From: a virus
Direction: 5' to 3' (one strand)
IMG/VR virus record: IMGVR_UViG_3300017963_000197
Location: 62,001-126,000 of that record
DNA length: 64,000 nt
Shown piece by piece: positions 6,292 to 48,293 of the stretch (position 1 is its first letter; every line of letters begins with the position of its first letter). The notes under the pieces were generated by a model. The model saw nothing but the letters and a program-made list of their open reading frames with translations, did not search any database and was not told where the DNA came from. A program made the position numbers and the translations under genes.

Positions 6292-6551
6292 TATGGTCCC
6301 GACACACCTGTTCCTTTCTTCTTGTCCCACTTACGAAACTCGTTCCAGGAGTCGAAGTGGCGTCTCGTCACACCCTTGAAATACTTCCACATATCACTCG
6401 CTTTGAACTTGAACGGGCCGCTGACAGCGGCAGCACAATAACCACCGGAACAGGTGTATTCCCACTCGCCGGTCTCTTTATTCTCGACACTGCCGAATGT
6501 GTCGCCCCCGCAAACGGGACACGAAAACTCTGTCCTGTGTTGAGTGATCAT
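6291..6551 (-). CDS. zinc-ribbon protein, 86 aa
   Basis: CPVCGG near residue 11 and CSGGYC near residue 34 form a zinc ribbon. The C-terminal half is basic and aromatic (MWKYFKGVTRRHFDSWNEF). It overlaps both neighbours by a few nucleotides. Probably a nucleic-acid or protein-binding adaptor of the operon; the role is unknown. Confidence 0.6.
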   Translation of the reverse strand: MITQHRTEFSCPVCGGDTFGSVENKETGEWEYTCSGGYCAAAVSGPFKFKASDMWKYFKGVTRRHFDSWNEFRKWDKKKGTGVSGP

Positions 6552-6751
6552 GGTCTCCGACGATACCCCAGCGACTCCTGGGTGTGTGGTGTTAGCTCCA
6601 GGGCGATCTCGAAACTGGTACTAGAATGGGAAGAAGCGACTACAGCCACCTCAGGAGGGTTGGCCAGCTTCTTGGCTTGGTCGATGGCCTGAACAAGTTC
6701 GCGAACGGTTTGCTCCGTAATCTGAACAGTTGCGCCCTTCAGGGTAGTCAT
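6548..6751 (-). CDS. hypothetical small protein, 67 aa
   Basis: ATG 6751 overlaps the upstream stop (ATGA). An N-terminal helix (TEQTVRELVQAIDQAKKL) is followed by a polar, strand-like region ending LGYRRRP. I chose the internal ATG over a longer reading because of this overlap. Family not recognised. Confidence 0.5.
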   Translation of the reverse strand: MTTLKGATVQITEQTVRELVQAIDQAKKLANPPEVAVVASSHSSTSFEIALELTPHTQESLGYRRRP

Positions 6752-7134
6752 AGCTTCTGCCACTCCGGGAACGGTCTTTCTTCCGACCGGTCCCACCAAC
6801 GGTAGCGGTAGCCCTGGAAGCCCCGAATCTTCTGGTCGATCGTGACAGCTACGGCGTCACCACCTCGAACCAGGGCAAAGCTGTCCTTGAAGTAGACGGG
6901 AACGTTCGTGTCGTAGCATACGGGGTCGTCGTCTATCCGTATCAACGGCGAGTATCCGATAAGGTGGCCGCTGTAGACCACATAAACACGGTCGCCGGGT
7001 TGCAGCTTCTTCGGCGGGCTGCCCCCCATGAACCAACCCCACTCCGTGCCGCTCCATTTGGCCCCGGCCGGGTCGCCCTCTGCAATCCAGCGCTTGAGTC
7101 CGAAAGACTTGGGCAACGTGACTACAATGTCCAT
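6748..7134 (-). CDS. PUA/ASCH/EVE-like small domain protein, 128 aa
   Basis: A pattern of short strands (MDIVVTLPKSFGLKRWIAEG, DRVYVVYSGHLIGYSPLIRI, DSFALVRGGDAVAVTIDQ) and Trp-rich ends (EWGWFMGG, YRYRWWDRS) resembles PUA-superfamily domains that sense modified bases. The resemblance is by eye and weak. Start and stop overlap the neighbours (TGATG), so it is translated with the operon. Confidence 0.45.
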   Translation of the reverse strand: MDIVVTLPKSFGLKRWIAEGDPAGAKWSGTEWGWFMGGSPPKKLQPGDRVYVVYSGHLIGYSPLIRIDDDPVCYDTNVPVYFKDSFALVRGGDAVAVTIDQKIRGFQGYRYRWWDRSEERPFPEWQKL

Positions 7135-7370
7135 CAGGCCGTTCTTTCGCGTAAAAGCTCCACGACCGCTTCGGCCTGATCCGGCGACAGTCCCTCAGGC
7201 CACAGTTCATCAAGCCTGAGCCATTCCCGCAAGACGTTTTTCTCGTCCTTCGAGATAACTATCTTCGTTTCCTGGGAACCCTCTTCTCTTGTCAGGACGA
7301 GGTCGCCACTGGATTTTTCGATACGCGCCAAAAGCCGGTTCCCCGGCTCACCTATAACAAACGAGGCCAT
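7134..7370 (-). CDS. hypothetical protein, 78 aa
   Basis: Begins MASFVIGEPGNRLLARIEKS and has a beta-strand N-terminus followed by an acidic helical end (LREWLRLDELWPEG, QAEAVVELLRERTA). The ATG at 7370 is chosen because the stop overlaps the next start and the upstream gene stops just before it. Not recognised. Confidence 0.5.
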   Translation of the reverse strand: MASFVIGEPGNRLLARIEKSSGDLVLTREEGSQETKIVISKDEKNVLREWLRLDELWPEGLSPDQAEAVVELLRERTA

Positions 7371-7372
7371 CT

Positions 7373-7591
7373 TTACTCCTTCAGCCCTTCGAGCAACCAG
7401 CGAAGATCCCGTAGATCCGAGTCGTCTACCATTAGCTCGAACACCTCGTCGGGGTCCGGCAAGACCCCCGCGAAGCAAATCCTGTGTTCTATGGAAGGTT
7501 CCGGCAGATGCCCGACACACGCATTGTCGCTCAACCGCTTGAACCGACAATCCGTGTGCGGACACCAACCAGGACGTTCCTGACCCGCCAT
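7373..7591 (-). CDS. Cys-rich small protein, 72 aa
   Basis: Cys/His residues (WCPHTDCRF, ACVGH, EHRICFAG) suggest a metal site in the N-terminal half. The C-terminal half is acidic and helical (DEVFELMVDDSDLRDLRWLL). It directly follows the ubiquitin-like gene, so it may be a partner in that pathway. Not recognised. Confidence 0.5.
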   Translation of the reverse strand: MAGQERPGWCPHTDCRFKRLSDNACVGHLPEPSIEHRICFAGVLPDPDEVFELMVDDSDLRDLRWLLEGLKE

Positions 7592-7595
7592 CGGC

Positions 7596-7862
7596 TCAAA
7601 CCCCGAAGGGCGTCTTCGGCCGAAGCTGAATCAGGTTGTAGGGACGTGCGTCGGTTGCGTTGAACCGATCCACGACGTAGTTACCCAGGTCGGGTGCCTG
7701 AGCCGGGATACCGGGAATGTCCCCGCCACGGATGGCTTCGGAGACCCACCCCTTCACGTCGTCGTCAGACGCAGCGAAGAGAACCGGGTCCGGAAGGTCC
7801 CCGTTCTGACCCCCGTAGGTGATGTTGACGCGAGCGTCGTTTTCGTTGATGTTGTCAGCCAT
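7596..7862 (-). CDS. ubiquitin-like protein candidate, 88 aa
   Basis: Size, strand/helix order (RVNITYGG hairpin, DDDVKGWVSEAIRGG helix, NYVVDRF, YNLIQLRPKTPFGV end) and a C-terminal strand finishing in Phe-Gly-Val suggest a beta-grasp ubiquitin-like fold. Its start overlaps the JAMM peptidase gene and an E1-like gene is in the same operon. A JAMM enzyme could remove the final Val to expose Gly for activation. The fold call rests mostly on context and the C-terminus. Confidence 0.6.
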   Translation of the reverse strand: MADNINENDARVNITYGGQNGDLPDPVLFAASDDDVKGWVSEAIRGGDIPGIPAQAPDLGNYVVDRFNATDARPYNLIQLRPKTPFGV

Positions 7863-8259
7863 GCTGCACCTCTCTTTCTAGCTCGTACCTCGATTCCTTT
7901 CGAAGTCTTGGTAGCCATATCGGCTGGTAATATTTGTTGAGATTGACGCGGTAGTCGTATTTGTCCGGGCCTTGCCAGACGATGTGAACGAGATGGGTGG
8001 AACTCGTGATCCACCAGATTATCCTCCGACCGAGAGCCGTCTCCACGCCGTTGAAGGTCGTAACGTCCTCGTAAGAGGGACCCGGCACCCCGGAGCCGGG
8101 GTGGCTGTGAGCAAATCCTAACACCCTGTCCCGGTTGTCCCAGATCACGTCCCAGAGCGTTCGGCTGTCTGGAAGGTAGGCCACGGACCGGTCCGTCGGG
8201 ATATGCCAGAACAGTGGCTTTCCCTCACGATCGACTAGAACTCCAGCTTCCACAGTCAT
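7855..8259 (-). CDS. JAMM/JAB-family metallopeptidase
   Basis: A canonical JAMM site is present: His51-Ser-His53-Pro, seven residues, Ser62, two residues, Asp65. The 134-aa length fits a single JAB/MPN domain as in prokaryotic deubiquitinase-like peptidases. These zinc enzymes process or remove ubiquitin-like proteins. The gene overlaps the ubiquitin-like gene by 8 nt. Phage tail-assembly JAB proteins usually carry an NlpC/P60 partner, which is absent, so a Ubl-processing role is more likely. Confidence 0.85.
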   Translation of the reverse strand: MTVEAGVLVDREGKPLFWHIPTDRSVAYLPDSRTLWDVIWDNRDRVLGFAHSHPGSGVPGPSYEDVTTFNGVETALGRRIIWWITSSTHLVHIVWQGPDKYDYRVNLNKYYQPIWLPRLRKESRYELEREVQHG

Positions 8260-20481: not shown

Positions 20482-20805
20482 ATGGTTGAAGCCACCGTAG
20501 TTGCCGACCGGTACGCCGCCGCTAAGGTCAAGAAAATCAAGGACCAGGGGTGGGATATTACCGTCCCGGTCATCCAGGGGGCCGCTGCCGTCGATGGTGC
20601 TGTGGAAGTGTACGCCGAAAAAGACGGGGTAAAGCTGAAACTCCGCTACTGGTTCGAGCGGTATACCCGCCGTGTCTTTCTCAAGGCCGAAGGCGTCTTC
20701 AATGTGGCCATGCCTCGACAGAACCTCGAACGACAAATCCCGTCCGCCTTCAAGAAAATGATCCGACGCCACGTCCTGAGGCACATCGACAAGCTACCCA
20801 GATAG
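20482..20805 (+). CDS. hypothetical protein with VVADRYAAAK tag, 107 aa
   Basis: The N-terminus MVEATVVADRYAAAKVKK almost repeats that of the 34.7-kb protein (MVDPDKVVTRYAAAK). The body is alpha/beta (WDITVPVIQGAAAVDGAVEV, LKLRYWFERYTRRVFL) with a basic helical end. It follows the MDHDRWK gene by 1 nt. The shared N-terminus with unrelated bodies suggests a targeting peptide. Confidence 0.6.
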   Translation: MVEATVVADRYAAAKVKKIKDQGWDITVPVIQGAAAVDGAVEVYAEKDGVKLKLRYWFERYTRRVFLKAEGVFNVAMPRQNLERQIPSAFKKMIRRHVLRHIDKLPR

Positions 20806-20888
20806 TGCGAGAAGAGGGACTCGAACCCTCACGCCCTCTCGGACACCTGATTTTGAGTCAGGCGCGTCTGCCATTCCGCCACTCTCGC
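20806..20888 (-). tRNA. tRNA-Leu (CAA)
   Basis: GCGAGAG/TTCTCGC acceptor, long variable arm, anticodon arm CCTGA-CTCAAAA-TCAGG. Confidence 0.92.
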
Positions 20889-20925: not shown

Positions 20926-21177
20926 ATGGACCCAAGAAAAGCCTTTGAGCAAGCTCTTACAGCCTCCAAACCTCTGGCCGAAGCCTTCGAGGAACTTGAC
21001 CGGGCCTCAGACCACGCCAATGGCCTACAACTGGCGCTCGTTAATGCTCGCCGCGTTATGAAAATGGAAGAGATTGACCGGAACGAGATAAGAGAGATCG
21101 AAAAGCTCACGCGCACCGCCGAGACCCTTCTGAGTGATGTAAACGACTTTAGATACAAGTTGAAGATGAAGTATTAA
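20926..21177 (+). CDS. coiled-coil protein with PRKAFE N-terminus, 83 aa
   Basis: Begins MDPRKAFEQALTASKPLAEA, resembling the 32.7-kb protein (MGKPRKAFEEALSKEA). The rest is a continuous helix (FEELDRASDHANGLQLALV, DRNEIREIEKLTRTAETLL). Its end overlaps the phosphopantetheinyl transferase gene tail-to-tail by 29 nt. A ribosome site GGAGATATAG precedes the ATG. Probably a small structural or packaged protein. Confidence 0.6.
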   Translation: MDPRKAFEQALTASKPLAEAFEELDRASDHANGLQLALVNARRVMKMEEIDRNEIREIEKLTRTAETLLSDVNDFRYKLKMKY

Positions 21178-21616
21178 CACACTCACATTCCGCCAACACA
21201 GCGACGGCTACAAACCTTCCGTGGTAGGCAAATGACTCTTGACCCCCTGGCATCCTAGAGGCCAGCAATCGAGCCTCTGTGTCCCGTTTGCCTATTGCCG
21301 TTATGGACCCAGCGGTCCAGGCGTGCGCGAAGTCATCGTTCGTCTCCACGCATACCTGAACCGTCTGACGCTTCCAATGAACCGCCACTTTATCCGCCCA
21401 TCCTTGTACCTCGAATAATACGGGGATGAACACCGCCGACGGGTCGAGCCTTTTACATGCCTTGTAGGCTGCTTCTTTACAGGCCCATAACCCCCACCGA
21501 ATGTGCCTGGACTCGATCAGTTGTTTCTCGGCTCTTGTAAAGATTCGAGAGTCGGAACGAGGATGCACTCGAAACGTTCTGGGGTCTCTCAGGTCTACGA
21601 TGTCGTTACCGACCAT
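21149..21616 (-). CDS. 4'-phosphopantetheinyl transferase / holo-ACP synthase family
   Basis: These enzymes transfer phosphopantetheine from CoA to a Ser on acyl carrier proteins. The metal-site motif VGNDIVDL (residues 2-9) and the W-x-x-KE-x-x-x-K motif (WACKEAAYKA, Lys47/Glu48) are both present. At 155 aa it is a single-domain form between AcpS and Sfp size. ATG 21616 is chosen because it starts exactly at the motif. Its partner ACP gene overlaps by 11 nt directly upstream. Confidence 0.9.
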   Translation of the reverse strand: MVGNDIVDLRDPRTFRVHPRSDSRIFTRAEKQLIESRHIRWGLWACKEAAYKACKRLDPSAVFIPVLFEVQGWADKVAVHWKRQTVQVCVETNDDFAHAWTAGSITAIGKRDTEARLLASRMPGGQESFAYHGRFVAVAVLAECECVNTSSSTCI

Positions 21617-21860
21617 CGAGCTTGGCCGCAATCATGTCGATAACGTGATGCATGTGCTTGAAAGTGACAACCTCTTCGTCCGTCAACTCGATCCCAAACT
21701 CATCCTCGAATTCCATAGAGGCGTCTACCATGTGGGAGGAATCGACCCCAAGCTCCTTTTTTAAATGTTGTTCGGGCGTCGCTGTTGGCATGGCTTCCGG
21801 CTCGTCCGAGTAAGGAGTAAGAATCTCGACCACCTTCTGTAAAATTTCATCCTTGCTCAT
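21606..21860 (-). CDS. acyl carrier protein
   Basis: An 84-aa acidic four-helix protein with the carrier motif GVDSSHMVDASMEFEDEFGI; Ser41 is the predicted phosphopantetheine site. The helix after the Ser (EFEDEFGIEL) is typical of ACPs. It sits between the ketosynthase-like gene (ATG overlap) and the transferase that would activate it. Substrate chemistry is unknown. Confidence 0.92.
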   Translation of the reverse strand: MSKDEILQKVVEILTPYSDEPEAMPTATPEQHLKKELGVDSSHMVDASMEFEDEFGIELTDEEVVTFKHMHHVIDMIAAKLDGR

Positions 21861-23116
21861 CACTTCTCCCATTTGCGTAACACAATCACGCTGTTCACAT
21901 CACCGAAGCCGAAGTTTGCTTTGAGTGCAATGTAGAGAGGCTTCTCCTCCGTTTGGTGGGGGACACGTTGATCCTCAATTTCGGGGATAGGATCTTCACA
22001 GTTTATCGAAGGGTGTATGAAATCGCCTCTCAACATGAGACAACAAGCGGCGACCTCGATTCCTCCCGCTGCCTGAAGCGTGTGACCCAAGAGAGACTTC
22101 GTTGAATGTATGTAAGGGAGGTCGGAGTCCCCGTAAACCTCTCGCCAACACCGTACTTCCAGGGCGTCTGCCATCGTGCCAGTCAGATGGCCGTTTATGA
22201 AGCTGACATCGAGAGGTCTGATTTTCGCGTTGACGAGAGCCTTTCGTATACAACGCTGGACGGCGTTCAGGTTTGGGGCCGTCATGCTGCCGCCCTCCCG
22301 TTGCGCCCCGCAGTTCGTGTGGTGTCCTAACACTTCGGCGTAGATTCGAGCACCTCTACGTTCCGCGCTTTCGAGTCTTTCGAGCACCACAACACCAGCC
22401 CCGCCGCTGGGCACGAGGCCGGTTGCCGACTTGCTCATAGGGCGGCTCGCTTTATGAGGCTCGTCCTTGTAGCCTTTCGCTGTCACACGTACAGCGTCCA
22501 GGGCCGCCCAGGCGTAGGGTCCGCTGCCTTCGGCCCCGCCGCACACCATCCTGTCGGCGTAGCCGTGTTGGATATGCCTCACACCATCCAGGATGGCCGC
22601 CAGCCCGGTAGCGCTCGTGGAACTGGCAGCGATTACCTTGTTCCCCAAACCTAGAAACTCAGCGGTACGGGCCACAATGCCTTCTGACAAGGTCCGGTGA
22701 ACATGCTTTGCACCCAGCCTACGCACGTTGCCTGAGACAACGGCCGGGGACAAATCTTCCGCCAAAGCGCGATGTCCGGCATGGCTCCCTGAGCCGATTA
22801 CGGCTCCTGAGTCCCAGTCAGGAGGCCCCTCTCCCAAAGGCGGGACCTCAAGCCCGGCGTCTTCCCATGCCTTGACCGCAGCGATACAACCATAACGGTT
22901 GACATCGTCCATGTAGGCCAACCGGTTTTTTGGGAAGTAGACTTCCGCCAACGTGTCCGTGGCCTCCGGGATACCCGCCACTTGGCACCGGAAGTTTTCC
23001 AAATCTTCGTGATAGGCGATTCCGGACCGACCCTCCCGCAGATTCTTTTCGAACTCGCCTAAAGTGTTACCAAGGGCGGTAACAACACCCAGCCCGGTGA
23101 TCACGACCCTTTCCAT
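21860..23116 (-). CDS. beta-ketoacyl-ACP synthase (FabF-type fold), Ser at nucleophile position
   Basis: The 418-aa protein has the thiolase-fold layout of FabF/KAS II: N-terminal RVVITGLGVVTALGN, NGHLTGT (His about 307), KSLLGH (Lys339/His344) and the C-terminal NFGFGDVNS loop. At the active-site Cys position, aligning on the downstream Gly of STSATG, the residue appears to be Ser (about 168). That would block normal condensation. It may act like decarboxylating (KSQ) or chain-length-factor homologs, or use Ser. First gene of an ACP/transferase operon. Confidence 0.9.
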   Translation of the reverse strand: MERVVITGLGVVTALGNTLGEFEKNLREGRSGIAYHEDLENFRCQVAGIPEATDTLAEVYFPKNRLAYMDDVNRYGCIAAVKAWEDAGLEVPPLGEGPPDWDSGAVIGSGSHAGHRALAEDLSPAVVSGNVRRLGAKHVHRTLSEGIVARTAEFLGLGNKVIAASSTSATGLAAILDGVRHIQHGYADRMVCGGAEGSGPYAWAALDAVRVTAKGYKDEPHKASRPMSKSATGLVPSGGAGVVVLERLESAERRGARIYAEVLGHHTNCGAQREGGSMTAPNLNAVQRCIRKALVNAKIRPLDVSFINGHLTGTMADALEVRCWREVYGDSDLPYIHSTKSLLGHTLQAAGGIEVAACCLMLRGDFIHPSINCEDPIPEIEDQRVPHQTEEKPLYIALKANFGFGDVNSVIVLRKWEK

Positions 23117-23123
23117 GTCGCGG

Positions 23124-23132
23124 TTCTACACC
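23124..23132 (-). promoter_or_regulatory. GGTGTAGAA promoter element of the ketosynthase operon
   Basis: GGTGTAGAACCGCGAC leads directly into ATG 23116 with a 7-nt gap; no ribosome-binding site. Confidence 0.5.
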
Positions 23133-23710
23133 GAATTATATGGTTCTTTACCTGACCACTGAGCCAATGTGATTTTGGACCGCCAAACGCCACCAATATG
23201 GGCGGCGATACTTCGCGGCGGCTGGTCCAGTGTGGCTCTTTCGTAAGTGACCATCAGCGACTCACCGGCCCACACAGGCGCGAGAGTATGCAGGTTTCTG
23301 AGCCACTGGCACGTTCGTACCAACAAGATGGATTGTGTTCTCAAGGCACCATGGTCGTCTGAGGGCAACGTCTTATAGTTGTCCATGGCGTAAGCTTCTT
23401 GTTCGTCGATCACCTTACGAGGCGTTGCCGCTCTCAGAGTATGATGCCTGATCATTGCTTCGGATGCTGGCGTAGGAAAGAGGTCTCTAACAGAGTCCAA
23501 GAACATGGCTTTGGCTCCGTCCGGGTTACACAGGGAGAACACGTGGAGCCAGTATTGAGGAAACCGGCGATTCAGGTTGTACCACTCCGCCATGGTATCG
23601 ACGCTGGGCTTCTCGACGAGCGTAACCCCATGCTCGCACCAGTAAGCGTCCGGCCCCTCCGCCCGTAGCGTTTTGAGCCTGTCAAGAAGCTCAGTGACCT
23701 GTGGTTCCAC
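23126..23710 (-). CDS. sulfotransferase-like or unknown enzyme of the acyl cluster, 194 aa
   Basis: The C-terminal third (SLMVTYERATLDQPPRSIAAHIGG) resembles the YE-x-L...dP...i..flG segment of sulfotransferases. The usual N-terminal PAPS-binding loop is not evident. A His-His pair (MIRHHTLRA) and WYNLNRRFPQYWLHVF lie in the middle. Its stop overlaps the ketosynthase operon promoter, so it is read through into that operon. Alternative: an unrelated helical enzyme. Confidence 0.45.
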   Translation of the reverse strand: MEPQVTELLDRLKTLRAEGPDAYWCEHGVTLVEKPSVDTMAEWYNLNRRFPQYWLHVFSLCNPDGAKAMFLDSVRDLFPTPASEAMIRHHTLRAATPRKVIDEQEAYAMDNYKTLPSDDHGALRTQSILLVRTCQWLRNLHTLAPVWAGESLMVTYERATLDQPPRSIAAHIGGVWRSKITLAQWSGKEPYNSV

Positions 23711-23712
23711 GT

Positions 23713-24372
23713 TTAGATAGGACCGCTGGGCTGGTACTCTATGATGGACATCTCGCAGAAGAGATCCACGGTGGCCGCTCCAGAACTCTGCGATTGGACT
23801 TCAATCTCAATGTTACCGCCCTTCCCCTTGTTCTTCGTTATGGAAATACGATAACCGTCCATCTCTTCGTAGTAGGTGGCTGTAGCGGTCAAAGTGGAAA
23901 CGCCAACGCTCATACGACCCATCGCACCGCCGCTTTTATAACAGGGGTAGTATGAAGGGCCATCGGGGGGAAGCATCGTTATTTGATACTTCATTGCCCA
24001 GATGCACGGATCATTGGCAAACACGTACGATAGAACGACGAGCGGTCCCTTGGAGAAACCTGGAATGACGTTGGTAACTCTGTCGATTTTCAGGATCGAC
24101 GGGGCAGCGTCAAGGGTGGTCTGATCGGTAATTGAATCGAGGGAAACCCCAATGTCGATCGGCGCTCCACCACCTGCGATCGAGCCGCCGCTCGTGATTT
24201 GGATCTCGTTACCGGCGTCGTCCTGGGTGAATAATTCGGCTATCCCGCTTACGTCCTTGGCGTACAACCTGTGGATGTTTGCCAAGACTCCCGGTGTGGC
24301 CTGTTCGGAAAGGTCTACCGGAACAGCCTCCTGACCGATAACGGTTCCTATTTCAGATTTCTTGACACCCAT
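23713..24372 (-). CDS. virion appendage/decoration-type protein, 219 aa
   Basis: The N-terminal region (LYAKDVSGIAELFTQDDAGN, then EIQITSGGS) closely matches that of the 488-aa fibre-cluster protein at 46.8 kb (VYSKNVGGVSELFAINDFGQ). The rest is beta-rich (ISITKNKGKGGNIEIEVQS, TVDLFCEMSIIEYQP), consistent with a jelly-roll-like virion domain. It lies outside the main fibre cluster, next to the lipid genes. Confidence 0.6.
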   Translation of the reverse strand: MGVKKSEIGTVIGQEAVPVDLSEQATPGVLANIHRLYAKDVSGIAELFTQDDAGNEIQITSGGSIAGGGAPIDIGVSLDSITDQTTLDAAPSILKIDRVTNVIPGFSKGPLVVLSYVFANDPCIWAMKYQITMLPPDGPSYYPCYKSGGAMGRMSVGVSTLTATATYYEEMDGYRISITKNKGKGGNIEIEVQSQSSGAATVDLFCEMSIIEYQPSGPI

Positions 24373-24430
24373 TGCTGCTCCATTTCTCTACAATGTGAGA
24401 TATGAACACGCGGATTTACAAAACAATAAA

Positions 24431-24517
24431 CGGTGCTGGGGACAGGAGTCGAACCTGCACGGTCTCTCGACCACTGGAGTCTGAGTCCAGCGCGGCTGCC
24501 TATTACGCCACCCCAGC
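24431..24517 (-). tRNA. tRNA-Leu (CAG)
   Basis: GCTGGGG/CCCCAGC acceptor, long variable arm, anticodon arm CTGGA-CTCAGAC-TCCAG. Confidence 0.92.
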
Positions 24518-24520
24518 ATG

Positions 24521-24590
24521 TTTCCTAGTAGGCCACATCCATTGGGTACCCTGAGTAGGATTCGAACCTACGTGGAACGCTACTAGGAAA
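24521..24590 (-). ncRNA. Stem-closed RNA containing only a tRNA T arm
   Basis: TTTCCTAGTAG and CTACTAGGAAA pair perfectly over 11 bp. Inside, CCAC/GTGG pairs, followed by T arm GTAGG-TTCGAAT-CCTAC and the palindrome GGGTACCC. No acceptor, D or anticodon arm exists. It fills the gap between two tRNAs exactly, so it would be released by their processing. Confidence 0.5.
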
Positions 24591-24667
24591 TGGTACGGGG
24601 AGCCGGGGTCGAACCGACGACTTCCTCCTTGTAAGAGAGGCACTCTGGCCAACTGAGTTATCCCCGC
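24591..24667 (-). tRNA. tRNA-Val (TAC)
   Basis: GCGGGGA/TCCCCGT acceptor, ACCA end, anticodon arm CCTCT-CTTACAA-GGAGG. Confidence 0.92.
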
Positions 24668-24700
24668 ATAAACTTATCGTCTCGGTGTATCAAAGCCGGT

Positions 24701-24883
24701 ATGGAACACCACGAGATGTTAAACCTGTTTGCCGAAATCTCGGTTCTGGCCGATGAGAGGGTAGGCACCCTTTCGAAAGAACAGAGACTGCGAAAGATCA
24801 TGGAGATCTGCGCTCAAGCCGGGATAGGGGTACCAGCTTGTATAGGAGCTACGGGACCCGCCTACCCGCCCGAAAGGAGCTAA
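24701..24883 (+). CDS. hypothetical small protein, 60 aa
   Basis: A GGTGTATCA element lies about 10 nt before the ATG. The first 40 residues form an amphipathic helix (MLNLFAEISVLADERVG, EQRLRKIMEICAQ). The C-terminus contains ACIGATGPAYPPERS. It is immediately followed, after a good ribosome site, by the decarboxylase gene. Not recognised. Confidence 0.5.
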   Translation: MEHHEMLNLFAEISVLADERVGTLSKEQRLRKIMEICAQAGIGVPACIGATGPAYPPERS

Positions 24884-24884
24884 C

Positions 24885-25961
24885 ATGTCAGATCAACCGA
24901 CCGTCATCGCCCTGAAAGAGCTTCTCAAGAAACACGAAGGCTGGAAGGCCCTGTTAGAAGACTCCATCTCAGAGGCCAAGAAAGAGGCCGTGAGGGGTGG
25001 GATTCGGGACGCCGACAAGTTCCCAGAAGGCTTGGAAGGCAAACACGGTTATTATCACTACCTGAACGAGATGGTCCAGTGGTGCCCCAGAGAAGACTAC
25101 GACAAGGAGTGCTTCTACATGCTGGCCAAGTTCTACTGGCTGTTAGACCAGCCGTCTGGCCGGAAGCTCCAAGAGTCGGACGAGTTCAATACCTGGATGC
25201 GTAACTTTGCCGACGACTGGGGAAGCTACCTGAACACAACCGACTCGGCCAAGTACATCCAGACCTTTATTGACGACCCGGCCTTCAATGCATGGCAGTA
25301 CATGAAGAACCCGTCGGGCTGGCTCACCTTCAACCAGTTCTTCGGCCGGGAAATCAGCCAGGGCCTACGTCCCGTGGCCGGTATGAAGAACGACGACATT
25401 ATCACATCCCCGGCCGACTCCGTCTTCAAGGAGAAGTTCCACATCACCGACGATGACGAGATCATCATAAAGCTCACCCACCGGTACAAGATCATCGACC
25501 TGTTGGAGGACAGTCCCTTCAAGGAGGACTTCCGGGGTGGCCTCTTCATGCATTCGTTCCTGGGTCCGAACGACTACCACCGGTTCCGTGCTCCCGTGGC
25601 CGGGACCGTCCTTGAGTGCCGGGCCATCCAACAGAACGTCTATCTGGATGTGCAAATCCGGGACGGACATTTCACCGCTCCGGACGGGGGTGGGTACGAG
25701 TTCACCCAGACCCGTGGGCTGATCATCTTCGACTCGCCCGTTGGCCTAGTGGCCGTTCTGCCGATCGGCATGGCTCAGGTCTCGTCCGTGAACATGACCG
25801 CCGTGGAAGGGGCCTATCTCCAGAAGGGTGAGGAGTTCGGCTACTTCTTGTTTGGCGGCTCCGACATTATCATGCTCTTCCAGGCCGACAGCGGGGTCGA
25901 GATCACCTGTGCGCCGGGCATCCACTACAACTGTGGGATGTGCGTGGGAGAGGTGCTCTAG
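24885..25961 (+). CDS. psd: phosphatidylserine decarboxylase family protein
   Basis: Pyruvoyl-dependent decarboxylases of this family convert phosphatidylserine to phosphatidylethanolamine. They self-cleave at a Gly-Ser. Here the conserved core LGPNDYHRFRAPVAGTV (about 224-240) and the C-terminal cleavage region EFGYFLFGGSDIIMLF (Gly-Gly-Ser about 323-325) are intact. WLTFNQFFGRE upstream matches the family. There is no obvious membrane anchor. A GAAAGGAGC ribosome site precedes the ATG. It may alter host lipids or decarboxylate another amino-acid conjugate; the nearby ACP/ketosynthase genes suggest acyl chemistry. Confidence 0.88.
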   Translation: MSDQPTVIALKELLKKHEGWKALLEDSISEAKKEAVRGGIRDADKFPEGLEGKHGYYHYLNEMVQWCPREDYDKECFYMLAKFYWLLDQPSGRKLQESDEFNTWMRNFADDWGSYLNTTDSAKYIQTFIDDPAFNAWQYMKNPSGWLTFNQFFGREISQGLRPVAGMKNDDIITSPADSVFKEKFHITDDDEIIIKLTHRYKIIDLLEDSPFKEDFRGGLFMHSFLGPNDYHRFRAPVAGTVLECRAIQQNVYLDVQIRDGHFTAPDGGGYEFTQTRGLIIFDSPVGLVAVLPIGMAQVSSVNMTAVEGAYLQKGEEFGYFLFGGSDIIMLFQADSGVEITCAPGIHYNCGMCVGEVL

Positions 25962-26367: not shown

Positions 26368-26369
26368 GG

Positions 26370-26747
26370 TGGAGTCGGCGGGAATCGAACCCGCGTCCGA
26401 AAGTGCTACTAATTACCACCTCTACGTGTGTAGCTCCATTTCGTGTCTTTGACAGGAACACCACCGGAGCGGGCAAAACCTGGGGGCGGCCTCACGGCTG
26501 CCACTTCCACCACTGGTCTAAACAACCTTGATTGAGGACGACCAGAGACTGCGCCTCAACTGCACCGGCTAATCGTCGCCCCATCCAAAGACGCCGGATT
26601 CTCTGGCGGGACGCCCTAGGCCGCGATGGCCAGGGGTGCTGCGTTATCGTTCGCAGTTATGTTTGAGCGGCTTGATAACCCGGCCAGCCGATCAACCGGG
26701 ACACGCAGTAGTAAATTCCACACCTCCGTCGAAACCTTTACGACCCC
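26370..26747 (-). ncRNA. ssrA: tmRNA (transfer-messenger RNA)
   Basis: tmRNA rescues stalled ribosomes and tags the nascent chain for proteolysis. The 5' end GGGGTCG pairs with 3' CGACTCC. The 5' region GTAAAGGTTTCGACGG and the 3' T arm CGGG-TTCGATT-CCCG are hallmark tmRNA sequences. The tag frame (26616-26654) reads ANDNAAPLAIAA then TAG. About 378 nt in one piece. CCA is not encoded (CCG). A GGTGTAATATAG element lies just upstream. Confidence 0.93.
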
Positions 26748-26981: not shown

Positions 26982-27052
26982 TGGAGAGTAGGGGAATCGA
27001 ACCCCTCGCATCCGGCTTGCAAGGCCAGACCGACCCCTTGTCTGTACTCCCC
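26982..27052 (-). tRNA. tRNA-Ala (TGC)
   Basis: GGGGAGT/ACTCTCC acceptor, same short D arm as its neighbour, anticodon arm CTGGC-CTTGCAA-GCCGG. Confidence 0.9.
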
Positions 27053-27579
27053 TAAAACTCCTCTATCGGGGTTTCGTTGTAATGCTTCTTATTCTGAATC
27101 TGGATGGCCCCAGAAATTTTTTGCCCTGGCAGTTCAAGAGGCCCCGGCTTATACGTCAGGCCGATAGTAGGGAGCCAGAGCCTAAGAGCCTCCTCGCAAA
27201 GTCCTTCGTACGTTAGTATTTCCAAGTGCGCGTCCGTGGACCTGATGTCTTGTATGTTTCGAGCGATGGTCGCTGTCCTATGGAAAAGGAACTCTTGTTG
27301 GTTCCTCCTCATACTACGAAGATTGGCAACGGGTTCTCTTACCATGACGATACACACGACTTGTCCGTACCCTTTGCCTTTCAAGGCGGCCACCCAAGAG
27401 TCCAAGTCTTGGTGGAAGATGCATACGTAAGGCCCCTTTGCGTCAGGGATGTCTTCTACAGTTCCCGGTTGATTGGCACTGCCTTCTCCAGCACAACCGC
27501 AACGCACCAAGATGGAAGCGAGGAGGCGGTTCCCACTACATATAGGCCCGCATACCACGTAAGCTGTGTTGTTCTCCAA
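27052..27579 (-). CDS. sulfotransferase-like P-loop protein, 175 aa
   Basis: An N-terminal strand-loop VVCGPICSGNRLLASIL fits the 5'-phosphosulfate loop of PAPS sulfotransferases. IVMVREPVANLRSMRR fits the 3'-phosphate site (R-x-P...S), and LEILTYEGLCEEALRLWL the family C-terminal segment. I chose TTG 27579, 6 nt after AGGAGA. Starting further upstream would overlap the previous gene by about 30 nt. Substrate unknown; a small kinase is an alternative. Confidence 0.6.
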   Translation of the reverse strand: MENNTAYVVCGPICSGNRLLASILVRCGCAGEGSANQPGTVEDIPDAKGPYVCIFHQDLDSWVAALKGKGYGQVVCIVMVREPVANLRSMRRNQQEFLFHRTATIARNIQDIRSTDAHLEILTYEGLCEEALRLWLPTIGLTYKPGPLELPGQKISGAIQIQNKKHYNETPIEEF

Positions 27580-42228: not shown

Positions 42229-43638
42229 TTAGTTCAGTTTGGCCTCGGTCTCGCCAGAAGCAGTCTCGCTGGCGCTTCGAGCGGCCGGGAAAGACCTAGC
42301 CTTTCTTGTGCGCCATGTCCGGACCCTGGCCGACCGGAGGTGGGCCACGATCTTACTCCAGATCTTGGCCATATTACTGGCGTGGTCGTAACTCCGATGG
42401 GAAACCTCTTCCACCAGGACTTCGAGCGCCTTGTCGCGGTCAGCGAGAATTCGTCTGGCGACGAAAACCTGATCCTTGTCGCTCTTGTACATCCCGCACT
42501 TTGCCTCAGACCGAAAATCCACTATGCGGATGTCGTCGGGGCTGAGCCGATCCACCCGGTCGATGAGAAAGACCGCGCTATCCAGATTGGCCTTTTCCTC
42601 GGGTTCGAGGTCGGCCCACGAGTAGAAATTCACGGCCTCGTTCTGGAGCGCCTTCTTGATGTCGTACAGGTCGCCCATCTCGTCGTCGAGAATGGCCTTG
42701 AGAGGTTTGTTCGTGACCAGAACGCTCTTCTTGCCCAGCGTCTCGACCTCCTGGCCGTCCAGAACGGTCTCGACCGCGATCGCGTCTTCCCCGTGGTCGG
42801 CCTTGAACTTGGCCACAACCTGCTCTTTGAGCTTGTCGTCCAGTTGGCTCGCTCCCCAGCTATCCAGGCCAGACAGGTCCCGGTGCTCCCCTTGGAGAGC
42901 CTCCATGAACGGAGCGATTAGCTCTTCCCGCTCGGCTGTGGAGTGTTGCCAGATCATCCGGGTTCGCCAGTGGAGATCGTGCCGCATGACCATCTTCCGG
43001 TCCCGATCCACCTGGACATCCTTGTCCAGATCGTAGCCGAACCGGATCTCCGGATCGTGCTCCACGAAAATCCCCTTCACGAAGATCTTCCTGGCGTACT
43101 CATTGTCCAGCAACAGAGCACCGTAGCTCGTGTTGATCCGAAGACGATCCTCTTTCTTCTTGAGGAACAAGAAGCACGCCTTCTTCTCTTCCCACCACTC
43201 CTTGTCGATGTTGCCGATCTCGACCTGAACACGCTCGACCGGCTTACGACCCTTGTCGATCCGGAACGTGAGCACGTCGGCCTTGAACTTCTCGGAGTGC
43301 TCGATCCGGGGCGTCCACACCTCCGAACCCGATCGGATCTTGACGGTGTGCCCGGCACGCAACAGGGCCAAGGTGCCGTCCTTCAACCCCTCTCCGAACT
43401 TGCCCCGGAGTTCATCGTTGTCGGCCTTGGTGGTATGGCCGTATAACAACGCCTCGTACGGAAGCGTGGTCCCCTTGTTCTCGATCACCAGCGTCTGAGC
43501 GTCGGCCCGATAACGCACGGTCAGCGGGGCATCGAATTCGTCGGCGGCGTCTGCCGCGTTTTGTAACAACTCCCGAACCCCTTCAAAGGTTCTCCAGTCC
43601 GGTAGGTGGTTGCTCTTGATGGATAGCTCAATTTTCAT
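42229..43638 (-). CDS. GHKL (Hsp90/MORC-type) ATPase with degenerate C-terminal metallopeptidase-like motif
   Basis: N-terminal ATP-lid motifs are present: GVRELLQNAADAADEF (N box), TLVIENKGTTLPYEALLYG (G1) and GKFGEGLKDG (G2). This is the Hsp90/MutL/MORC fold used for ATP-driven clamps. Near residue 413, VEEVSHRSYDH aligns with the HEFGHHYSSDH of the 59.1-kb paralog but lacks the first His, so that site is probably inactive. It ends in a basic tail. A GGTGTAACA element and GGAGGAGG ribosome site precede the ATG. Confidence 0.82.
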   Translation of the reverse strand: MKIELSIKSNHLPDWRTFEGVRELLQNAADAADEFDAPLTVRYRADAQTLVIENKGTTLPYEALLYGHTTKADNDELRGKFGEGLKDGTLALLRAGHTVKIRSGSEVWTPRIEHSEKFKADVLTFRIDKGRKPVERVQVEIGNIDKEWWEEKKACFLFLKKKEDRLRINTSYGALLLDNEYARKIFVKGIFVEHDPEIRFGYDLDKDVQVDRDRKMVMRHDLHWRTRMIWQHSTAEREELIAPFMEALQGEHRDLSGLDSWGASQLDDKLKEQVVAKFKADHGEDAIAVETVLDGQEVETLGKKSVLVTNKPLKAILDDEMGDLYDIKKALQNEAVNFYSWADLEPEEKANLDSAVFLIDRVDRLSPDDIRIVDFRSEAKCGMYKSDKDQVFVARRILADRDKALEVLVEEVSHRSYDHASNMAKIWSKIVAHLRSARVRTWRTRKARSFPAARSASETASGETEAKLN

Positions 43639-46826: not shown

Positions 46827-48293
46827 TTAGGACGGGCCGGGCGGCTCAGGGAGGAACCCGGCGTCAATGGCAAGCGGTATCGGCAACGCAAAACCAAGGG
46901 AGGAGTCTAGCAGCCAAGTGCCCACACCATCGGAAATCAACCTAAGAGGCTCATAAGTTGACCACACAACGGCAGTCTCACCCGCCCCCAAATCTGGTGA
47001 GACAGCGTCTCCCGGCGCTGGCTGCACAACGACTACAGCACCGGAAGTACCCGTCTTCTTCTTGGCTTTCTTGGACAGGTAGTTAAGAAACGTTATGGCT
47101 TTCGTAGCGCTTTCGGGTGTGATCGGGGGTAGAGTCAGAATAACATAACCAGAAGTCGGACTATCGAGTCTGGGCGACCGCCCCGCCACCATGTCATAGA
47201 AGTCAACATCAACACGAACCGGCCCCCAACTCGCGTAGTCTTGCGTGTTATACAGAAGCCAAGACTGAGGGTCAGTGCCCATCACGACGCTCTCGGACTT
47301 CGGGTGATTCAAGATCCACGTCGTTCCAAAATATGTGACACCACTACTCACAGCCACCGCTATGCCACCCGGTTGGACCGCCCCCTCTTCAAAGGGCGAT
47401 GGGCGTGTCCAAGCCCCCGTCGCCACGGTCCAGACCCCATTTTCTATGGGGTCCGTCTGAGCCGAGAGAAGAACAACATCGTCCGCAGCAAGCACCTGAC
47501 CGTCTATAGTGCTCCCCTCCCCGGAAAGAGATGCAACGTTGGCCACGGCAACAACGTCGGCGGAGTCAACCGCTGGCGGTGCCGACTCGATAACAATAAC
47601 CCAATTCTGTGGATCATCGCCAACAGTTATAGGGACACCAGACGGGTTCCAGAAAGCCCAGCGTTGAGTTACCTCCGGTGGCCCCGGATCTGTCTCCATC
47701 TCGACTATGGCATCCTGAATCGCAGCGCCGGTATCAGCATCGGGAGCGCGGGTCCAGGCCCCCGACGCAACGATATAGATACCATTTGCTATTTGATCCT
47801 CCGTTTGGCTTAACGCACAAGCGCGAAGAACGCGATCACCAGCCGAAACCACGACGCCTTCTTTGTCCCCCTCACCGGAAAGGTCCGTTGTAGAATCGAT
47901 AAGAACCTGGACAACGTCAACGAGCGTTGGAACGGTGCTCGTGGCATCATACAACTCGCCCGGCGTATCGTCCTTCCACTTCATAGTCGCTGTGACGGCC
48001 GCTAAACTGCCACCGCTCGTGATTTGGACCTCTTGCCCGAAGTCGTTTATCGCGAAAAGCTCGGACACACCTCCAACGTTCTTCGAGTAGACCTTCGCAG
48101 AACCAGCGGTAGGGTCAGGAGCGTCCGGGAGAACGTTGTATTGACTGGGACCTCCCGCTGACGTGGCGGGAGTTATCACACCATCGGAGTCTTTGAGGGA
48201 AGGATTACCGTTCTCATCCACGAAGAATGTAAGGTGTGAGGGAGGTGGGGTTGGAACTCCATCACCGGGTCTCTTTTTCAATGCTATCGACAT
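46827..48293 (-). CDS. fibre-cluster virion protein with tandem beta domains, 488 aa
   Basis: The N-terminal module (IALKKRPGDGVPTPPPSHLT, then FFVDENGNPSLKD) is shared with the next two proteins. Then follows a second shared segment (VYSKNVGGVSELFAINDFGQ). The middle holds two repeats of about 85 residues, each with LSGEGD/LSGEGS, NGIYIVASGAWTRAP / NGVWTVATGAWTRPS and a DDPQNWVIV / TDPQSWLLY end, a beta-sandwich pattern common in tail-fibre-associated proteins. Likely an exposed adhesin or decoration subunit. Confidence 0.72.
   Translation of the reverse strand: MSIALKKRPGDGVPTPPPSHLTFFVDENGNPSLKDSDGVITPATSAGGPSQYNVLPDAPDPTAGSAKVYSKNVGGVSELFAINDFGQEVQITSGGSLAAVTATMKWKDDTPGELYDATSTVPTLVDVVQVLIDSTTDLSGEGDKEGVVVSAGDRVLRACALSQTEDQIANGIYIVASGAWTRAPDADTGAAIQDAIVEMETDPGPPEVTQRWAFWNPSGVPITVGDDPQNWVIVIESAPPAVDSADVVAVANVASLSGEGSTIDGQVLAADDVVLLSAQTDPIENGVWTVATGAWTRPSPFEEGAVQPGGIAVAVSSGVTYFGTTWILNHPKSESVVMGTDPQSWLLYNTQDYASWGPVRVDVDFYDMVAGRSPRLDSPTSGYVILTLPPITPESATKAITFLNYLSKKAKKKTGTSGAVVVVQPAPGDAVSPDLGAGETAVVWSTYEPLRLISDGVGTWLLDSSLGFALPIPLAIDAGFLPEPPGPS

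Follow-up and report, generated by a model that had tools for sequence, protein, structure and literature searches.

A ketosynthase-fold protein with serine in place of the catalytic cysteine, encoded with an acyl carrier protein and its activating enzyme in the tRNA array of a huge tailed phage

Phages are known to carry single acyl carrier protein (ACP) genes. A search of open papers, with most subscription papers outside its reach, returned descriptions of phage ACP and of the gene set fabG-acpP-fabF (PMC8224337) and none of the gene set reported here. Outside phages, ketosynthase (KS) domains of polyene loading modules with Ser at the site of the catalytic Cys are described as keeping decarboxylation and showing reduced condensation (PMC12843615, PMC4540446), and malonyl-ACP decarboxylases, which are unrelated enzymes, yield acetyl-ACP that feeds FabB/FabF and GlmU (PMC8666670). 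Here we describe an operon encoding a FabB-like beta-ketoacyl synthase with Ser at the catalytic position, an ACP and a 4'-phosphopantetheinyl transferase (PPTase) in a stretch of viral DNA of 64,000 nucleotides, hereafter the window, which comprises bases 62001-126000 of the 173,051-base IMG/VR record IMGVR_UViG_3300017963_000197.

The KS (window positions 21860..23116, minus strand) is a protein of 418 aa that stands on its own, the ACP being encoded by a gene apart, and it carries both the N and C domains of ketoacyl synthases (PF00109, 3.6e-30; PF02801, 3.5e-25). Condensing FabB/FabF enzymes are recognised by a Cys-His-His active site and a Lys; in the phage protein, His310, Lys340 and His345 are retained in the alignment, whereas the nucleophile is Ser168, where each of the 20 KS sequences aligned with it has Cys. 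The nucleophile stretch reads SSTSATG in the phage KS and SSACTTG in its closest bacterial relative, with adjacent residues altered too, and the Ser168 codon is AGC against TGC in that relative. A Cys-to-Ser exchange with both His residues retained is the mark of the KS-S type, although the phage protein stands free rather than in a type I loading module. With Ser168 at the catalytic position, the phage KS is unlikely to be an ordinary condensing enzyme. A normal, acyl-making KS is hence not supported as the basis of the special acyl group that, in a sequence-only reading of this DNA, the cluster could make or transfer; nor was any malonyl transferase, ketoreductase, dehydratase, enoyl reductase or acyltransferase recognised in or beside the operon, parts of the 416-kb genome having been viewed by eye for other lipid genes.

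The minus-strand operon contains five intact genes, tightly packed over 3.2 kb, in the order ORF219, ORF194, KS, ACP and PPTase. ORF219 (23713..24372) and ORF194 (23126..23710, with a GTG start) are 2 bases apart, ORF194 and the KS 9 bases apart, and the KS, ACP and PPTase genes overlap by a few bases; from this spacing alone we infer that the genes are co-transcribed, and promoter and terminator patterns matched no more commonly than by chance. The 84-aa ACP (21606..21860) has a PP-binding domain (PF00550, 4.4e-5) with the attachment residue Ser41 within GVDSS, and matches PHROG 5934 (acyl carrier protein, 2.4e-9) and NCBIfam (4e-13). Its ATG overlaps the KS stop codon and is preceded by a ribosome-binding-like GGGAGAAG, with an alternative start, 4 aa longer, possible at 21872. 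The compact 155-aa PPTase (21149..21616) has an ACPS domain (PF01648, 5.5e-7) and all three motifs, GND (of the GxD type) at residue 3, WACKEA (WxxKEA) at 44 and SFAYHGRFVAVAV at 128, and its C-terminal strand resembles that of the bacterial enzyme. These three proteins, and that of a nearby gene of the phosphatidylserine decarboxylase (PSD) family, all score above the Pfam curated cut-offs and far beyond chance. The Pfam matches and gene overlaps confirm the earlier proposal that an ACP, the enzyme that activates it and a ketosynthase-like gene overlap in one phage operon; the two further genes upstream (23126-23710 and 23713-24372) and the Ser nucleophile go beyond it.

The KS family was sampled in one bacterial phylum, entered through an Acidobacteriota locus (Thermoanaerobaculales), in a draw of 247 genomes and then in a partly overlapping one of 396. 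In the first draw one KS, 48% identical, was set apart by its score of 397 bits, the runner-up reaching 202 bits, and the same single KS stood out in the second. It lies in a full type II fatty-acid cluster (L067, on contig 104 of G009, Acidobacteriota phylum) with the gene order SDR-reductase-like, FabH-like, FabA-like, FabZ-like, KS, ACP, PlsC-like and PPTase, in which the FabA-like protein exceeds one NCBIfam cut-off. In a tree of 21 sequences, the phage KS and 20 relatives, the phage protein was placed on the FabB side as sister to this cluster KS, with support of 100/100 and a long stem. Both lack one residue behind the first active-site His (GHLTxT-MAD) and carry an FGFGDVN motif; the deletion also occurs in one FabF, from Sphingomonas. 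KS matches in the 'phages' collection were all below 38% identity, those annotated being ordinary FabB/FabF-type proteins and some records being plainly bacterial. Scans of IMG/VR for further phages with the KS, ACP or PPTase returned the same virus only, although such scans detect only sequences with a few short peptide patterns in common and overlook more distant ones.

The operon forms an island between tRNA-Leu(caa) (20805..20888, minus) and tRNA-Leu(cag) (24432..24517, minus), both called by ARAGORN. The 416,539-base record IMGVR_UViG_3300028840_002431 (G001) contains the window sequence base for base, and the two records are the same virus. A sibling phage (G002; 398,071 bases) is collinear with G001 at a median protein identity of 63% across shared genes; no KS, ACP, PPTase or ORF194 could be detected in it, and its tRNA-Leu genes caa, taa and cag adjoin with no operon between them. 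Since the sibling lacks it, the operon is accessory cargo in the tRNA array, where no flanking repeats that would mark its insertion were found. Codon usage of the KS, ACP, ORF194 and ORF219 is within the phage range, and that of the PPTase is at the 2nd percentile. A chimera or host contamination is unlikely, as the operon lies inside the phage tRNA array and two contigs that differ in length carry it unchanged.

According to these sequence comparisons, we give about an even chance to the reading that the operon is a cargo module whose KS-ACP-PPTase part comes from a bacterial type II cluster, with the KS as a free-standing KS-S that would work as a decarboxylase or acyl transferase on the phage ACP. 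The three genes would have been taken from a bacterium's dedicated type II fatty-acid cluster, and the phage PPTase, with its intact motifs, could put phosphopantetheine on the phage ACP. A host malonyl transferase would then load the phage ACP, such an enzyme being unrecognised in or near the operon. Of its active-site residues, the KS has lost the condensing Cys and kept the His/His/Lys machinery for binding and decarboxylating malonyl-ACP, which makes a free-standing KS-S its most likely identity; it might convert malonyl-ACP to acetyl-ACP, or use Ser168 to hand an acyl group on from the phage ACP to an acceptor. The module could in this way supply a private pool of acyl-ACP, with ORF219 or ORF194 as candidate acceptor.

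Several points weigh against this reading. Roles for all of the operon proteins are predicted from sequence and motifs, and the AlphaFold models of ORF194 (pLDDT 42) and ORF219 (pLDDT 37) were unusable, being too poor for a structure search. Both operon-bearing assemblies are the same virus, so that Ser168 rests on one lineage. The equation of Ser with decarboxylase is itself insecure, because mutagenesis of NysA, as cited in PMC4540446, is reported to have implicated S413 rather than the active-site S170 in decarboxylation. The Ser nucleophile may also be inert, in which case the KS would be a scaffold or a passenger in decay.

A different, if unlikely, reading is that ORF219 receives an acyl group which the module makes or transfers, so that the virion is decorated, with ORF194 as a transferase, chaperone or second acceptor. 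Residues 27-66 of ORF219 share 50% identity over 40 residues with a 488-aa protein encoded at 46827-48293 (in-genome E 2e-7; hhalign probability 94%), which itself matches PHROGs of virion structural (8.6e-28), head decoration (7e-20) and tail fibre (3.7e-17) proteins. Because of this match, the operon probably opens with a virion-surface protein, ORF219 being a probable head- or tail-fibre-like one. Acyl transfer to a virion protein, suggested by the sequence-only reading, stays possible on the ground that the operon begins with this virion-like protein, and the 50% identical segment lends it some support while leaving it unproven. ORF219 is also the opening gene of the operon, 2 bp ahead of ORF194, and has an anchor-like segment in common with a virion-type protein, and the phage has other genes of surface-modification type, such as those for sulfotransferases. 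Nevertheless, operon neighbourhood by itself is weak evidence, the structure predictions for both proteins failed, ORF194 has no recognised acyltransferase-like domain, and no acylation motif is known. ORF194 is an orphan that matched nothing in Pfam or NCBIfam, reached a best E of 0.063 in PHROGs, and gave nothing meaningful among PDB sequences and no match among phage records; a first guess that its C-terminus is sulfotransferase-like gained no support. That the private ACP, the PPTase and a Ser-nucleophile KS-fold acyltransferase together attach an acyl or polyketide-like group to the virion surface protein of the same operon seems quite improbable on these sequences, and we know of no precedent for an ACP-dependent modification system of a virus particle.

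It is also unlikely, somewhat more so than virion decoration at large, that the module serves host takeover, with the holo-ACP and a non-condensing KS acting as decoys that draw malonyl and acyl groups away from host fatty-acid synthesis and slow or redirect membrane formation in the infected cell. Such a role would agree with the phage having its own ACP and PPTase, with the lost Cys and with the lack of recognised reductive or hydrolytic enzymes alongside, but a decoy would not need His310, Lys340 and His345, all three of which are kept. Very doubtful is a KS that still condenses, with Ser168 as a slower nucleophile and the trio extending host acyl chains to an unusual lipid while host reductases complete the cycle: the entire KS fold and the remaining active-site residues are kept and the source is a full fatty-acid cluster, yet Cys is present in 20/20 compared relatives and Ser KS domains have been described with reduced condensation (PMC12843615). 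The least probable case, a recently captured fragment heading for loss with Cys-to-Ser as an early inactivating mutation, could draw on the sibling phage without the operon, the altered residues around the nucleophile and the low codon-usage rank of the PPTase, but is hard to square with five intact packed frames over 3.2 kb, with KS and ACP codon usage inside the phage range, and with a KS that is 48% identical to its relative while its other catalytic residues are conserved.

The PSD-family gene (24885..25961, plus strand) sits outside the operon, beyond tRNA-Leu(cag) and tRNA-Val(tac), on the opposite strand. Its product, a pyruvoyl-dependent decarboxylase by family, has PSDC and PS_Dcarbxylase domains in a PsiD-like architecture (PF02666, 2.7e-41; PF12588, 1.1e-6), with the self-processing motif of the GGS/GST kind present as GGS at residue 324, and its best PDB matches are L-tryptophan decarboxylases. 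No transmembrane helix was predicted in it (maximum KD19 1.97, within the core domain), and it appears to be of the soluble PsiD-like type. The protein is 83% identical in the sibling phage and 75% identical in a further contig (G003, a 32-kb fragment), and no KS was found in either of these PSD-carrying contigs (398 kb and 32 kb). Codon adaptation at the 99th percentile of the phage suggests that the gene may be highly expressed. The decarboxylase had been taken as a partner of the ketosynthase cluster, and this is not supported: it is conserved without the operon in the sibling, lies on the other strand, differs greatly in codon usage and looks like the soluble PsiD-like type. The enzyme is a separate, unrelated and more conserved gene of the phage group, and a functional unit of PSD and KS operon was rejected on the opposite strands and the lack of a KS match in G002 and the G003 fragment.

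The virus is a huge tailed phage. Gene calling on G001 gave 599 genes at a coding fraction of 88%, among them many very large late genes whose products look by eye like tail and virion proteins, besides genes for replication, for recombination and for a GroEL-like protein. In the window, ARAGORN called 42 tRNA genes, all on a single strand at 2400-32236 with short ORFs in between, and a tmRNA of the one-piece type (26368-26747) with the tag ANDNAAPLAIAA. Proteins of the sulfotransferase family are encoded at 61355-61999 and 27052-27579 (minus), with a match to the PHROG galactose-3-O-sulfotransferase (6e-16); the one at 27052-27579 bears only weak similarity to Stf0 (E 0.19) and is 42% identical to the C-terminus of a protein encoded at 328961-330307 of G001. 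At 5254-8259 (minus), a ThiF/E1-like protein (PF00899, 2.5e-22) lies near an ORF of 88 aa and a protein whose match to JAB-like proteases is weak and below cut-off (2.6e-4); this trio, also kept in the sibling phage, is a possible ubiquitin-like conjugation set. Beyond the window, neighbouring nicotinamide phosphoribosyltransferase-like and NMN adenylyltransferase/Nudix-like genes at 257444-259757 of G001 (L018), judged by eye, form a possible NAD salvage pair, neither of which was matched in the sibling. Proteins resembling HSP90/gyrase-type ATPases by eye are encoded at 42229-43638 and 59072-60559, the latter with a weak HATPase_c match (4e-4, below cut-off).

If functional, the operon would represent a virus that repurposes, rather than boosts, fatty-acid machinery, through its own activating enzyme and a nucleophile-swapped ketosynthase; the free-standing Ser-KS is a directly testable enzyme with a possible tie to virion modification. 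Against known systems, the PSD-family protein agrees with the PsiD-type L-tryptophan decarboxylase/phosphatidylserine decarboxylase family in its PSDC and PS_Dcarbxylase domains and GGS motif, but it is without a membrane anchor and was seen in three phage contigs. Roseobacter prophages are likewise reported to carry fatty-acid synthase genes in phage genomes, whereas their set is fabG-acpP-fabF, and the available excerpt of that report mentions neither a PPTase nor a nucleophile change (PMC8224337). By profile, the phage KS has the same fold and family as E. coli FabB/FabF and falls on the FabB side of the tree, but it is about 33% identical to E. coli FabB, has lost the Cys and scores far below the NCBIfam equivalog cut-offs. 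With the Acidobacteriota cluster, the phage genes share their order and the deletion and FGFGDVN motif of the KS, at identities of 48% (KS), 37% (ACP) and 33% (PPTase); the bacterial KS, in contrast, has Cys and FabH-, FabA-, FabZ-, SDR- and PlsC-like neighbours, whereas the phage trio has no PlsC-like gene, Ser for Cys, two other genes upstream and a shorter PPTase (155 against 224 aa, with all motifs kept). The KS-S/KS-Q domains of polyketide loading modules (nystatin NysA, rimocidin RimA, natamycin) resemble the phage KS in having Ser in the place of the catalytic Cys within an otherwise preserved KS; those, however, belong to modular type I synthases that include a cis acyltransferase, whereas the phage KS, known from sequence, is free-standing and FabB-like with a separate ACP.

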